The position numbers and the translations under genes are program-made. This document shows positions 18,892 through 36,993 of a DNA stretch of 64,000 nt, piece by piece (within the stretch, counting starts at the first letter, position 1; the number at the start of each line of letters is the position of its first letter). The notes under the pieces are model-generated. The model did not search any database. It saw only the letters and a list, made by a program, of their open reading frames with translations, and was not told the origin of the DNA. Source of the stretch: Alkalimarinus alittae (lineage in GTDB: Bacteria > Pseudomonadota > Gammaproteobacteria > Pseudomonadales > Oleiphilaceae); assembly GCF_026016465.1 (NCBI RefSeq), contig NZ_CP100390.1, positions 620,001 through 684,000 of the forward strand, written 5' to 3'.

Positions 18892-19737
18892 CTATTCATG
18901 GAAGTTCGCAGTGGTACGAAATGCGTTTGCTTCATAAGTCCCTAATACTCGAACTTCTTCAGCAAAAAAGTTTAATTCCTCAATAGCGAGCGCCATAGAC
19001 CGCATACTTAAGTGCCCCTCGATATCAGCATGAAACTGACTTGCGTTTAAACGACCGCCAGGCATATAGCTCTCAAGCTTGACCAAGTTAACACCATTAG
19101 TGGCAAACCCGCCTAACGCTTTATATAGCGATGCGGGGATATTTCGAACGCGAAAAATAAGCGATGTAATATAAGCTTTTTGGGGGTCAAACTTAGGTAG
19201 TTGCTCGGTATGAGATAAAATAATAAATCGAGTGGTATTGCCTTGTTCGTCTTGAAAGTTTTCTTTCAGTATTTTTAACCCGTAGAGTTCTGCGGCTAAA
19301 GAGGATGCGATAGCCGCTTTGCTTAGATCATTACTCTGGCTGACTTCTCGGGCCGCGCCTGCGGTATCGAGTTTGGCCAGTTCGGTTAACTTCAACTGGG
19401 CGATATGGTTATTACATTGAGCGAGTGCTTGTGGGTGAGAGCCAACCGTTCGAATCGTCTCTAGCGAGGCGTTTGGTAACCCGAGTAAGCAGTGGTTCAC
19501 TGGCTCATAATGTTCACCAACGATGTGTAAACTCATCTTGGGAATCAGTCGATAAATCTCTTCGACTCGTCCGGCAGTAGAGTTTTCGACAGGTATCATC
19601 GCAAGGTTAGCGCGACCCTGTTCAACCGCTTGCATAGCCTCTAAAAAAGTATCGCAAGCTGAAGCCTCTCGTTGAGGGAATACATGCTGACAGGCTAGGT
19701 GAGAATAGGCACCTTCTACGCCTTGATAAACGATCAA
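18892..19737 (-). CDS. pheA: Monofunctional prephenate dehydratase
   Basis: Converts prephenate to phenylpyruvate for phenylalanine synthesis. 281 aa: catalytic PDT domain (VYQGVEGAYSH, MIPVENSTAGRV, GNTTRFIIL) and a C-terminal ACT regulatory domain (about 195-270; NGVNLVKLESYMPG). There is no N-terminal chorismate mutase domain, unlike the enterobacterial P-protein. I choose the TTG at 19737: AAGGAG lies seven bases upstream of it and the resulting N-terminus MIVYQGVEGAYSH fits the family; the GTG 30 bases earlier has no Shine-Dalgarno and adds ten unconserved residues. Confidence 0.92.
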   Translation of the reverse strand: MIVYQGVEGAYSHLACQHVFPQREASACDTFLEAMQAVEQGRANLAMIPVENSTAGRVEEIYRLIPKMSLHIVGEHYEPVNHCLLGLPNASLETIRTVGSHPQALAQCNNHIAQLKLTELAKLDTAGAAREVSQSNDLSKAAIASSLAAELYGLKILKENFQDEQGNTTRFIILSHTEQLPKFDPQKAYITSLIFRVRNIPASLYKALGGFATNGVNLVKLESYMPGGRLNASQFHADIEGHLSMRSMALAIEELNFFAEEVRVLGTYEANAFRTTANFHE

Positions 19738-19932
19738 ATCGTTGCTCCTTAAACGGGTTGTGGTCACTCGCGAAGATTACGAATAGCTAATTTAACATAT
19801 TCTATAATAGGCTTATAGCGACGCATTTTCTTGTGTGATCATGCTGGGAGGTGCGTTTAACCCGATTGCAGGTTGATTTTATCGAGATAGCTAACGTATG
19901 GTTAAGACATATCAACCGTTAAGAGTTTACTT

Positions 19933-20728: not shown

Positions 20729-21556
20729 TTAGTCGCCTACAAGGTCAACTTTAATGGTCATGCTTTGGTTATCAATCGAATGTCGTTCAGTAGAGTAGCC
20801 AATGCCGCTCGTGCTACGTTGAGAATCTTGGCGGGTGCCTCCAATCGTCGCCCACTCACCCAATCTAACGACTTGAACTGACTCAATCGTGGCGGTATTG
20901 ATTGTATTGGGTTGGCGTTTGCTAGCTTGATTTTGCTGGGTACGTATTTTTAGTTCAACCTGATCGCTACCCATTAGTCTAGGTTCAATATAAAACCCGC
21001 TTGTCATATCAATATAATCTACTCCGTTAACCCACTGGCCGTTTATTAATTGTCGCTCACGTACGGGGTGTTTTTGGCCTGCGCTAACGAATGCAGAATG
21101 GCCTTCTAATACTCTAACGGCTTGACTGCCTGTTCCACGGGTTTTGTACGATTTTTTATGCGCTTGAATGTTTATGCTGCCATTGTTCATGGTGTTTGTG
21201 GATGTTGATATCGAGCCTGATATTCCTTTATTGTTTTGTTGGGCGTTGGCATCGCTAGATACGCTGATCAGGAACTGGTTAGGTGCAACATCTAAAGAGG
21301 TTACCAGTTGTTTGATCTCTTCTAAGGTTGACCCGTCAGCCCTAATGGTTAATTGCTGACCCCTTCCGACCACTCGCACTTGCTGTTCAGGGTAGAGTGC
21401 TTTTATTTGGCTTGCTATATCTTCTGCTGCTCGGTATTGAACTGAGATTACCTCAATATTTTGTGCAAATACTGCCTGACTCACGCTTAATAGTAAGAAC
21501 AGTATGCTTATTTTAATAGCGGCTAAACTCGGCGTTAAAACCCAACTGAATCTCAT
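20729..21556 (-). CDS. Secreted secretin-domain protein without a complete channel
   Basis: 275 aa with a signal peptide (about 1-31, ending VFAQ). The N-terminal part (NIEVISVQYRAAEDIASQI, VVGRGQQLTIRADG) matches the N-domain (NolW-like) of type II/III secretins, and the C-terminal part (ESVQVVRLGEWATIGGT) resembles the secretin core, linked by a Ser/Asn/Thr-rich segment. It is less than half the length of GspD or PilQ and stands alone, with no secretion genes nearby. It may be a small periplasmic secretin relative; function not assigned. Confidence 0.75.
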   Translation of the reverse strand: MRFSWVLTPSLAAIKISILFLLLSVSQAVFAQNIEVISVQYRAAEDIASQIKALYPEQQVRVVGRGQQLTIRADGSTLEEIKQLVTSLDVAPNQFLISVSSDANAQQNNKGISGSISTSTNTMNNGSINIQAHKKSYKTRGTGSQAVRVLEGHSAFVSAGQKHPVRERQLINGQWVNGVDYIDMTSGFYIEPRLMGSDQVELKIRTQQNQASKRQPNTINTATIESVQVVRLGEWATIGGTRQDSQRSTSGIGYSTERHSIDNQSMTIKVDLVGD

Positions 21557-21745
21557 GTTTAATCCTTAATCTGCGCAAAGATATAAGTTTAAATAGCGTT
21601 ACACCCTACACAAAAAATGTAGCATTAAAACGCTAACGTAGCAGCCTTTCAGTTTAGACCTTTATGCGGCAGACTAAACAATGAATATTGATAAGTTTAG
21701 CCTGAGTGGGTTTGCAAGCGAGTTTAATTGGGTTAAGATTCTTTC

Positions 21746-21937
21746 ATGAATATGAAAAACACACGCCTACACATCACTGCATTTGACCTCTTTGTCGCGT
21801 TGACGAAGCCGTGTTCTGCCGTGTCTGTCGATAAAAATGGCAATAACGGTGTTGTTTCATCTAACAATTTTTCTGGTTGGCAGTATTGGTTTTACTATTT
21901 TAGTAAGACGGTTAAGCGAACCCTGGATACTCGTTAA
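21746..21937 (+). CDS. Aromatic-rich leader peptide of the DAHP synthase gene
   Basis: 63 codons from ATG 21746 (or ATG 21752) to TAA 21935-21937. Codons 45-52 (21878-21901) read W-Q-Y-W-F-Y-Y-F: two Trp, three Tyr and two Phe within eight codons, a density unlikely by chance. It ends 137 bases before a gene for the first enzyme of aromatic amino acid synthesis and is followed by alternative RNA hairpins and a terminator. By analogy with trpL and pheL, I infer the peptide is a ribosome-stalling sensor for charged Trp, Tyr and Phe tRNAs. The Shine-Dalgarno (GGGTTAAG) is weak and the peptide is long for a leader, so the true start could be internal. Confidence 0.75.
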   Translation: MNMKNTRLHITAFDLFVALTKPCSAVSVDKNGNNGVVSSNNFSGWQYWFYYFSKTVKRTLDTR

Positions 21938-22031
21938 GTACGACAATGTATCAGGAAGGTGAGTTTAACAAAACAGCCTTCCGGACAAGTTTTATAAAAC
22001 CCCGAAAGGCTTTGGCTAATCGGGGTTTTTT
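21922..22031 (+). promoter_or_regulatory. Transcription attenuator of the DAHP synthase gene
   Basis: Successive alternative pairings read from the sequence: segment 0 (21922-21930, CCTGGATAC) with segment 1 (21948-21955, GTATCAGG); segment 1 (21954-21959, GGAAGG) with segment 2 (21977-21982, CCTTCC); segment 2 (21975-21984, AGCCTTCCGG) with segment 3 (22002-22011, CCGAAAGGCT); and segment 3/terminator 5' arm (21996-22005, AAAACCCCGA) with the terminator 3' arm (22020-22029) before a T run. A ribosome stalled at the aromatic codons leaves 0:1 free to form, so 2:3 forms and transcription continues; a ribosome reaching the stop codon melts segment 0, so 1:2 forms and the terminator follows. Mechanism is inferred. 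Confidence 0.75.
21996..22031 (+). terminator. Intrinsic terminator of the attenuator
   Basis: AAAACCCCGA, 14-base loop, TCGGGGTTTT and T run, lying 44 bases before the DAHP synthase start codon and after the leader stop codon. Its place inside the leader of a gene, rather than after one, is what marks it as an attenuator. Confidence 0.9.
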
Positions 22032-22074
22032 CGTTTTAGGGCTTTAACTAAGTAAGGAATATAAGGATTCATCT

Positions 22075-23139
22075 ATGACTAACTCAACTAGCATAGGTTT
22101 AGATCATCAGGCTGAAGCTGAGACATCTTCCACCTCTGTGGATGTTTTGCCTTCATCACTAGTGATTAAACAGCAGTTACAAGCGGCTGGCGCTTTACGA
22201 TTGCAGGTTCAGCAACAACAGCAAATGATTAATCGCATTGTCAGTGGTGCAGATCCTCGCATGATGGTGGTGACAGGGCCTTGCTCAATACATGACACCG
22301 CATCGGCTATCGATTACGGGCGACGCCTTGCGCATTTATCTTCTAAAGTGAGTGACCGTTTGTGCTTAGTCATGCGTTGCTACTTTGAAAAACCAAGAAC
22401 AACCGTCGGGTGGAAGGGGCTGTTACATGACCCGTTATTAGATGGCAGCGATGACATGGAACGGGGCGTGAGATTATCTCGTACTCTATTACTTGAACTT
22501 GCCGGTATGGGGCTGCCATTGGCGACAGAAGCACTTAGCCCATTAGCCATTAGCTACTTTGATGACCTTATTAGCTGGGTTGCTATCGGTGCAAGAACAA
22601 CTGAATCTCAGCCTCATAGAGAAATGGCGAGTGGATTGTCTGCTGCCGTAGGATTTAAGAACGCGACAGATGGAGGTTTTACGGCAGCGATTAATTCCAT
22701 GAAGTCAGCGGCAAATCCTCATGTGTTTATGGGGGTGTCTGAGAATGGTGAGATAGGAATCGTTCGTACCGCCGGAAACCCTAATGGCCATATCGTACTC
22801 AGAGGTGGAAACGGACAACCGAATTATGATGCGCTCAATATAGCGCGTTGCCAGCATGCACTTCGAGATGCCGGTTTGAATCAGCGCATTATGATTGACT
22901 GCAGTCACGAGAATTCAGGCAAAGACCACCTCAAACAACCCCTTGTACTGAAAGACATTGCTGAACAAGTGAAGGCGGGTAATAGCGCTATTATGGGCAT
23001 AATGATTGAAAGTCATATAAATGAGCATCGACAAGATATTTCAGCTGACATGGAGTACGGTGTCTCTATCACTGATGCGTGCATGAGTTGGGAGCAGACT
23101 GAGCGTTCAATTAACGCGCTGTATGAGTCGCTTGGTTAA
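22075..23139 (+). CDS. Class I 3-deoxy-7-phosphoheptulonate (DAHP) synthase
   Basis: Condenses phosphoenolpyruvate and erythrose 4-phosphate, the entry step of the shikimate pathway. 354 aa, AroF/AroG/AroH type: MVVTGPCSIHD, MRCYFEKPRTTVGWKG, AIGARTTESQ, SAAVGFKNATDG, DCSHENSGKDH. Which isozyme (Phe-, Tyr- or Trp-inhibited) cannot be read with confidence, so no symbol is given. AAGGA lies seven bases before the ATG. The gene follows an aromatic leader peptide and attenuator, so expression should rise when Trp, Tyr or Phe tRNAs are uncharged. Confidence 0.94.
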   Translation: MTNSTSIGLDHQAEAETSSTSVDVLPSSLVIKQQLQAAGALRLQVQQQQQMINRIVSGADPRMMVVTGPCSIHDTASAIDYGRRLAHLSSKVSDRLCLVMRCYFEKPRTTVGWKGLLHDPLLDGSDDMERGVRLSRTLLLELAGMGLPLATEALSPLAISYFDDLISWVAIGARTTESQPHREMASGLSAAVGFKNATDGGFTAAINSMKSAANPHVFMGVSENGEIGIVRTAGNPNGHIVLRGGNGQPNYDALNIARCQHALRDAGLNQRIMIDCSHENSGKDHLKQPLVLKDIAEQVKAGNSAIMGIMIESHINEHRQDISADMEYGVSITDACMSWEQTERSINALYESLG

Positions 23140-35293: not shown

Positions 35294-36993
35294 AAATCTC
35301 AAGACAAGCCTATGCTGATATGTACGGCCCCACGACTGGCGACCGGGTAAGACTCGGTGATACCGAACTGTGGATTGAAGTCGAAAGCGATGCGACTCAC
35401 TATGGTGATGAGGTTAAATTTGGCGGCGGTAAAGTGATCCGCGATGGGATGGGTCAGAGTCAGCGCGCGGATGATTCTGTTATGGATACAGTCATCACTA
35501 ACGCCTTAATTTTAGATTGGTGGGGCATCGTAAAAGCGGACGTTGGCATTCAACAAGGGCGTATCGCGGGTATTGGCAAATCTGGTAATCCAGATATTCA
35601 GCCAGACGTAGACATTGTGATTGGCCCGGGTACAGAAATCATCGCAGGGGAAGGTAAAATTCTGACCGCGGGTGGCGTTGACCCCCATATCCACTTTATT
35701 TGTCCTCAGCAAGTGGAAGAAGCCCTGATGAGTGGTATTACCACCATGTTGGGTGGCGGCACGGGTCCTGCTACTGGCACCAATGCAACGACCTGCACAC
35801 CGGGTGCTTGGCACATGGGTAAAATGCTTCAGGCAGTGGATGAACTGCCGATGAACATTGGTTTTTTAGGTAAAGGAAACGCGAGTCTCCCTGAGGCCTT
35901 AGAGGTGCAGATAAAAGCAGGGGCTATCGGCCTAAAATTACATGAAGATTGGGGGACGTCGCCAGCGAGTATCGATAACTGTCTCACGGTCGCAGATCAA
36001 TATGATGTGCAGGTTGCGATCCATACCGATACGCTAAACGAATCTGGCTTTGTAGAAGATACCTTGGCTGCGTTCAAGGGGCGATGCATTCACACCTTTC
36101 ATACTGAGGGCGCTGGAGGTGGGCATGCACCGGATATTATCACCGCGTGCTCTAAAGATTATGTGTTGCCGTCTTCCACCAACCCTACGCGACCCTATAC
36201 GATAAACACGGTCGATGAGCATTTAGATATGCTGATGGTGTGCCATCATTTGGACCCTAATATCCCAGAAGATGTCGCCTTTGCTGATTCACGTATTCGC
36301 CGAGAAACGATTGCTGCCGAAGATATTTTGCACGATATGGGGGTGATTTCGATGATTTCATCGGACTCACAAGCCATGGGGCGGGTGGGTGAGGTGATTT
36401 GCCGTACCTGGCAAACCGCACACAAGATGAAAGTTCAGCGCGGCTTGCTACCCGAAGATGAAAGCTTAGGCGCTGATAACTTTAGAGCCAAACGATACAT
36501 CGCTAAATATACCATTAACTCTGCTATTACCCATGGTATCGCCCACGATGTGGGGTCTGTAGAGGTGGGTAAGTTGGCTGACTTGGTGCTATGGAATCCA
36601 GCATTTTTTGGTGTGAAGCCTGCCTGCATTATTAAAGGCGGTATGATCGCGGCGGCCCCTATGGGAGACCCTAATGCATCGATACCCACACCTCAGCCGG
36701 TGCACTATCGCATGATGTTCGGCGCTTTTGGTAAAGCCGCCAGTGCCACCCGTCTGACCTTTGTTAGTAAGGCTGCGCTCGACGCCGATATTGGCAAAGA
36801 ATTAGGGCTAGATAGCCCGCTCTCGGCCTGCACTGGGGTAAGACAAGTCCGCAAGCGCGATATGAAACTGAATGACGTCTGCCCGAATATTACGGTAGAC
36901 CCTCAAACCTATGAAGTGCATGCAGATGGCGAACTGCTGACCTGTGAGCCGGCTTCTGAATTACCGTTGGCCCAGCGCTATCACTTGTTCTGA
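35290..36993 (+). CDS. ureC: Urease alpha (catalytic) subunit UreC
   Basis: Nickel-dependent hydrolysis of urea to ammonia and carbamate. 567 aa, the standard length. Nickel and active-site elements are all present: HIHFICPQQ (metal His pair), GLKLHEDWG with the lysine that is carbamylated, [29 protein letters not shown], and the flap histidine in MVCHHLD. It should be catalytically competent. Confidence 0.98.

Follow-up and report, generated by a model that had tools for sequence, protein, structure and literature searches.

The DAHP synthase gene of Alkalimarinus alittae in the window, the stretch of 64,000 nucleotides analysed here, is very probably governed by a ribosome-mediated transcription attenuator whose leader peptide carries control codons for each of the end products Trp, Tyr and Phe, a reading that draws on the anatomy, conservation, covariation and folding observed for the leader region. 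Textbooks describe DAHP synthase, the entry point of aromatic biosynthesis, as controlled by TyrR, TrpR and feedback inhibition. The sequence comparisons give good support to the mechanism class, and we read the leader as a variant of ribosome-mediated attenuation that is both new and widespread.

The leader ORF, whose translation reads ...NNFSGWQYWFYYFSKTVKRTLDTR, carries a run of eight codons made up of two Trp, three Tyr, two Phe and one Gln, and its stop codon lies 137 bases before the DAHP synthase ATG at 22075 (Table 1). An earlier note, made from the letters alone, had singled out this run in a short ORF ahead of a DAHP synthase gene, and both re-reading of the ORF and the match of the enzyme to TIGR00034 bore it out. 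The arrangement is that of leader-peptide attenuators, with an ORF bearing a run of product codons upstream of a pathway gene. Between the leader ORF and the gene there is, as in attenuators, an intrinsic terminator (AAAACCCCGA...UCGGGGUUUUUU), a feature absent from the earlier note. The leader ORF has a second in-frame ATG at 21752, which some relatives lack, and AAGGA at 22063-22067 precedes the ATG of the DAHP synthase gene.

Table 1 Features of the putative attenuator and its gene, in window positions
Feature	Positions	Strand	Description	Basis
Promoter-like site (putative promoter)	21712-21739	+	TTGCAA 21712-21717, 16-nt spacer, TAAGAT 21734-21739	
Leader peptide ORF	21746-21937	+	63 aa, ATG start, TAA stop	ORF list, translation, alignment with relatives
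Segment 0	21873-21881	+	CUGGUUGGC; shares bases with the first Trp codon; possible partner of C in the absence of a ribosome	
Control codons W-Q-Y-W-F-Y-Y-F	21878-21901	+	TGG CAG TAT TGG TTT TAC TAT TTT	
Segment A	21911-21922	+	GUUAAGCGAACC; within the leader ORF, 9 nt past the control codons; predicted to pair with B	
Segment B	21954-21969	+	GGAAGGUGAGUUUAAC; predicted to pair with A or C	
Segment C	21974-21984	+	CAGCCUUCCGG; predicted to pair with B or D	
Intrinsic terminator	21996-22031	+	stem AAAACCCCGA/UCGGGGUUUU; U tract 22026-22031; segment E = 22020-22029	
Segment D	22001-22012	+	CCCGAAAGGCUU; predicted to pair with C (antiterminator) or E (terminator)	
DAHP synthase gene	22075-23139	+	type I aroFGH, 354 aa	NCBIfam TIGR00034, 436.6 bits (cut-off 173.2)

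The six reading frames of the 64-kb window hold one eight-codon stretch with at least seven aromatic codons of all three kinds, and 60 dinucleotide-preserving shuffles of the window yielded one between them. By itself the run is only mildly improbable, and its conservation in relatives is much stronger evidence. The background rate, about one such run per 60 windows of this size, is what would be called upon if the region held no switch and were just a plain terminator next to an ORF that is aromatic by chance; a lone intrinsic terminator would be conserved too. Against such a chance ORF, the nearest long upstream ORF (20729-21556) is on the strand opposite to the leader.

Among the five genomes of the genus comparison, a close orthologue of the DAHP synthase gene (78-83% identity) was found in three besides the window's own, and none in G004; the upstream sequence of G003 is that of L005, a 'Hahellaceae bacterium' metagenome bin. 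All four orthologues have the leader, with the ATGAAT start aligned in each. Its core, GW[QH]YWFY[YF]FSK[TS]VK, is identical at 11-14 of 14 positions in every pair, whereas the part before the core shows 7-17 identities over 32-43 positions and varies in length, always in frame. The earlier note had proposed looking for aromatic codons that are kept as the rest of the ORF drifts, and this is the pattern seen. In each pair the core codons show 0-1 synonymous differences and 0-3 that alter the amino acid, and the small number of changes suggests that RNA pairing may also constrain the core.

The conservation of SK[TS]VK just past the run in the genus could also mean that the peptide is a nascent-chain sensor, as the TnaC leader peptide is, or acts in trans, rather than reporting slow aromatic decoding. 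We regard this as very unlikely, since the stretch overlaps RNA segment A, which would explain its conservation, and since flanking residues vary by lineage with the aromatic content kept, unlike in an arrest peptide.

In the model given in Table 1, the alternating pairings of five RNA segments (A-E) downstream of the run are those expected of classic attenuation. The region 21860-22075 folds better than 200 of 200 shuffles (z -3.83). A simple terminator scan did not list the terminator, perhaps because of its long loop; a terminator follows the first leader in 24 of the 25 loci listed, the exception being L267. The letters predicted to pair in A:B are GUUAAGC/GUUUAAC in the window, GCGGUU/GACCGC in G154 and GGCCAGCC/GGCUGGCC in G023.

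In the mechanism that we infer, which includes promoter, translation, stalling and a response to each amino acid, RNA polymerase would start at or beside the leader ATG and the ribosome would load onto a leaderless 5' end. In a shortage of Trp-, Tyr- or Phe-tRNA, the ribosome would stall in W-Q-Y-W-F-Y-Y-F with its leading edge before or at segment A; A would then pair with B, C would be free for D, D:E would come too late and the gene would be transcribed. With all three charged tRNAs plentiful, the ribosome would reach the stop codon and cover A, upon which B:C and D:E would pair and transcription would end near 22031. If translation is absent, C would be held by segment 0 or by B, again favouring termination. 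The net result is predicted to be an OR gate, responding to Trp, Tyr and Phe, placed where the shared aromatic pathway begins.

Folding of only the RNA 3' of the ribosome, a scheme which assumes that the RNA upstream of the ribosome plays no part, gave A:B at all five stall positions tried in 4/4 orthologues. With the ribosome at the fourth control codon, A:B formed together with C:D, and with the ribosome at the stop codon B:C formed with D free, each in all four orthologues. Without a ribosome C was occupied in all four, by an upstream segment in the window and L087 and by B in L086 and L088; the segment 0 pairing is part of the minimum free energy fold of the window and L087 and absent from L086 and L088, and segment 0 is where the model is weakest. 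When the whole region of the four orthologues was folded at equilibrium, with the ribosome footprint blocked and D just emerged, the switch was supported only in part. It is fully seen in L087 only. In the window, C:D reached 0.77-0.78 with the ribosome stalled at codons 1-7 and 0.22 at the eighth, and the stop-codon state was mixed (C:D 0.49, B:C 0.26). L086 and L088 showed no switch in this scheme, as would be expected of a chance ORF. A mutually exclusive antiterminator is predicted in 4/4 orthologues by downstream-only folding, versus fully in one, partly in one and not in two by whole-region equilibrium folding; the pairings that it needs are present in 7/7 representatives of the swap test described below. 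When E is included D:E dominates in every state, so the switch, if real, must be kinetic.

Covariation was assessed in an alignment of 13 loci, four of them near-identical, in which 97.4% of cells pair; the model used to fit this alignment presupposes B:C and D:E. Pairs with changes on both sides number six in B:C and four in D:E, and the slid-helix controls gave at most three. On four of five measures 0 of 500 shuffles reached the observed values; the fifth, further pair types, was as high in 156 of 500. A swap test that is free of the alignment model exchanged segments among seven representatives (5040 permutations). For A:B the cognate mean was -16.0 versus -11.5 kcal/mol, with 11 permutations equally good, while 50 permutations matched the cognate B:C and one the cognate D:E. 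C:D pairing is present in all seven representatives, and both of its sides are strongly conserved; 1432 permutations were equally good, so the cognate C:D is not discriminated. In these sequence comparisons A:B, B:C and D:E covary, and C:D is conserved without covariation.

The promoter-like site upstream of the leader was not in the list of the simple scan. A TANNNT box ending 6-8 nt before the leader ATG is present in 13/13 loci (four near-identical), against 6.3% of all ATGs in these loci (95 of 1508), and a Shine-Dalgarno-like site precedes the leader ATG in 0/13. The -10-like box at this distance together with the lack of a Shine-Dalgarno sequence suggests that the leader mRNA of the window is probably leaderless. 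Leaderless leader peptides are known from Streptomyces lividans, according to the accessible portion of PMC8079986.

Segments A-E of five sequences (those of the window, L086, L087, L088 and L099, the locus of G154) were used to build a covariance model, which was run on 163 family genomes. The 11 best matches (E 2.6e-32 to 4.2e-8) are the five model members and six g2 genomes, and all 11, six of them from outside the model, lie upstream of DAHP synthase genes with a W/Y/F leader each. The control run is GW[QH]YWFY[YF]F in the four genus orthologues and GWHFWFYF[YF] in the six g2 loci, where the new runs are GWHFWFYFY and GWHFWFYFF; G010, the seventh g2 genome, gave only a weak match. Two weaker matches are DAHP-linked too, G023 (run FWWFGFGYF, E 3.6e-5) and G158 (run WHFSFYFGYY, E 1.8e-4), the latter with the sequence of the Oleiphilus locus L032. 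The first unrelated match, in G004, has rank 12 (E 1.1e-5). Altogether 68 of the 163 genomes matched at E up to 0.1, and 20 loci were examined; the weaker matches outside these 20 include ranks 13 and 14 (G005, G009) and three further ones in the window's own genome. Thirteen of the 20 are DAHP-linked; the other seven (L136, L138-L140, L142-L144) were rejected as plain terminators, with an aromatic leader in none. Rfam gave one unrelated match and no leader family for the whole window at gathering score, three matches for 21650-22150 at E up to 1, all below gathering, and none for ten relatives' loci; the leader was not placed in Trp_leader, Phe_leader, His_leader or the like.

To score leaders more widely, we required an ORF with at least six aromatic codons in nine, of all three kinds. 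Nine of 117 non-redundant DAHP upstream regions contain such a leader, four of them from the window's genus, compared with 1/117 on the reverse strand, 0/112 downstream and 4/2340 in shuffles. This enrichment, together with the conservation of frame, run and segments across genera, makes a chance ORF beside a plain terminator extremely unlikely. In Acinetobacter, which we take to share the window's order (Pseudomonadales of GTDB), 30/30 of the best 30 of 60 genomes have two leaders, one after the other, that hold 5-8 aromatic codons (for example NAYFYFWQF and YSYFSNFYWFYFSQ); under the strict rule some of these loci show one leader only. At the order level, 1/29 best-matching genes has leaders (L190). 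Among 60 further upstream regions, 14 pass a loose test versus 3 on the reverse strand, and 10 pass the strict test (six of nine, three kinds) versus 0 on the reverse strand.

Trees of 98, 137 and 177 DAHP synthase proteins place all leader-bearing genes of the order and Acinetobacter in one group. The window's gene, whose leader has at least six W/Y/F codons within nine and all three kinds nearby, is a member. Traced to their genes, the 11 strong-leader regions among the further 60 (the 10 strict ones and L257) fall inside the group and the other 49 outside. In the 177-protein tree, a leader accompanies 33/33 group rows, 17 of which were chosen for a leader (11, L264-L274) or an attenuator match (6: L130, L131, L133-L135, L137) and 7 of which are from Acinetobacter, a genus chosen because L055 had leaders, versus 3/144 other rows; the reverse-strand control gave 1/177. 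The three are L041 (Desulfobacterales), L042 (an uncultured gammaproteobacterium) and L082 (Lentisphaeria-like). Sixty-six genes (L175-L203, L276-L280, plus 18 and 14 more) were picked blind to the upstream region: three fell in the group, all with leaders (L190, L276, L277), and 63 outside it, without leaders. Other genes (20, L302 and 26) were added after their upstream sequence had shown no strict leader, to test group membership. The earlier note had thus described one instance of something larger: the run itself stands, but it is not a one-off, since a group of DAHP synthase genes bears such leaders.

Leaders were labelled in the 137- and 177-protein trees from 700 nt upstream (six of nine, three kinds in context). 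For the 98-protein tree the labels came from 560 nt upstream and a different rule, under which L130, L131, L133 and L274 went unlabelled, and the leaderless rows of this tree were partly hand-picked. L081 is labelled 'none' despite a similar five-of-nine run, and G263 and L272 are the same gene entry. Two rows were left out of the trees, L073 (short) and L004 (query not matched), the latter presumably another enzyme of the same Pfam family. Support for the group branch was 62/86 in the careful tree of 98 rows and 91 and 89 in the quick trees of 137 and 177 rows. The trees are midpoint-rooted, so one origin of the leader-bearing group is likely and no firmer than that. Run order and spacing vary within it (WQYWFYYF, FYWWQFYF, WHFSFYFGYY, FWWFGFGYF, NAYYYFWQF).

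Outside the main group, leaders with terminators before DAHP genes carry RFYYFWYYF, RFYGFFWRF and kin, and WQGFFYFIGFYF; they are those of L041 (about 2770-2930, Desulfobacterales), of L073, L081 and L082 (Lentisphaeria) and of L042. Aromatic leaders with terminators outside the main group suggest repeated origin.

The E. coli trp, pheA and his leaders have codons for one cognate amino acid each, and stalling on them leads to antitermination. They also differ from the window's leader in standing before end-branch genes and not before the first common step. The likeness between trpL, pheL and the his leader and the window's leader lies in cognate codons, alternating segments, an intrinsic terminator and stalling that gives antitermination, some of which is set out in the available part of PMC11802643. 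The nearest described case is aroR-aroF of C. glutamicum (Neshat et al. 2014), likewise an aromatic-codon leader before a DAHP synthase gene, in which ribosome stalling on a Phe-Tyr-Phe leader peptide raises transcription (passages of PMC11802643 and PMC4046766). Compared by these partial descriptions, AroR belongs to another phylum and is given as Phe-Tyr-Phe with no Trp mentioned, whereas the window's run has two Trp codons and is not of the AroR type.

AroR also bears on how many amino acids the window's leader would sense, as it answers to Phe and Tyr availability is without effect in the account excerpted from PMC11802643, although its leader contains both. By this precedent the window's attenuator could sense just one aromatic amino acid (Trp, or Phe as in AroR) with the other codons as passengers or for tuning the level, and Y and F do swap between relatives. 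We consider single sensing unlikely, although clearly worth weighing: all three kinds lie within a few codons in every row of the group (the label demands all three, and no row failed), and codons that are not sensed should drift away. Sensing of all three thus remains the preferred reading.

Other precedents are more distant. The uORFC-13-1 motif of Acholeplasma aroF, in the text extracts of PMC8632094, likewise has a uORF and an intrinsic terminator before a DAHP synthase gene; it is another motif, with at least one Phe codon in the uORF, and is reported there from Acholeplasma and environmental sequences only. E. coli aroF-tyrA also includes a DAHP synthase gene, but Tyr attenuation there is a hypothesis (Camakaris 1980, as cited in the portions available of PMC2659441 and PMC8632094). 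A Tyr attenuator is cited in a prediction for Shewanella aroF, and attenuators are predicted before a DAHP synthase-tyrA operon in Vibrio, both in partial texts. Among the open-literature matches listed, and in the available parts of PMC2965389, PMC1262725, PMC8079986, PMC3937554, PMC7822408 and PMC6435475, no DAHP gene was preceded by a leader that combines Trp, Tyr and Phe, and absence from print is not established by this. The earlier note did not recall the arrangement as described; leader control of DAHP synthase as such does have precedents, whereas the literature searched offered none for a three-aromatic leader.

The window's genome has three DAHP synthases that match the query, and only the gene at 22075-23139 has such a leader. 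A CYWYTF ORF about 110 nt before a second paralogue (L001/L098, L094, L096) was rejected as a chance occurrence, being out of frame in an upstream transporter-like gene. The described controls of the E. coli DAHP synthase genes are TyrR and TrpR repression (PMC11802643, in the part available). TrpR (PF01371) and the TyrR-type HTH (TIGR04381) had no match in the window's genome, and the E. coli positive controls matched in both cases, which suggests that in this genome aromatic amino acids may exert their genetic control mainly through the attenuator. About 2 kb from the leader, 18892-19767 (-) is presumably a prephenate-dehydratase-like gene of the phenylalanine branch; no aromatic leader was found among the listed ORFs before it.

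A second tri-aromatic uORF lies between the first leader and the DAHP gene in L145-L174 (Acinetobacter), L190, L266, L267, L268, L269 and L272. In the examined loci it is mostly past the first terminator, with no terminator of its own found, and ..WRF.. recurs in several families. This second uORF may give further, translation-level control. The same relatives could be taken to mean that control runs through translation of the DAHP gene or through Rho and not through the intrinsic terminator at all, which is most unlikely for the window, where a single leader is accompanied by a strong intrinsic terminator that has a U tract, and where D:E covaries. In L134 and L135 (g2), a conserved uORF ending RWEPYHFYWIRWWCQSRFS[YH], about 150-340 nt before the gene, is a second aromatic ORF.

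Attenuation at the intrinsic terminator may be part of a wider pattern, on which we are evenly divided: an old order-wide module that would join one DAHP synthase orthologue group to a tri-aromatic OR-gate attenuator, leaderless in the window's family, with two-stage control in some relatives and, in the window's genome, apparently replacing TrpR/TyrR repression. The two-stage part would concern Acinetobacter, families f20, f36, f38 and f43 and two g2 genomes, with the second stage probably acting on translation. The leader marks one DAHP synthase group across several families, including Acinetobacter and Oleiphilus, and a long-studied enzyme may carry an undescribed shared layer of control. 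If the predicted response is correct, a single RNA switch would sense Trp, Tyr and Phe together; metabolic engineering would have in it a natural attenuator with several inputs, and it would serve as a test case for a ribosome that integrates several slow codons.

Elsewhere in the window, 35437-35722 (-) matches the Rfam family 5_ureB_sRNA (95.8 bits). This family is known from Helicobacter, and the match may reflect just conserved urease coding sequence.
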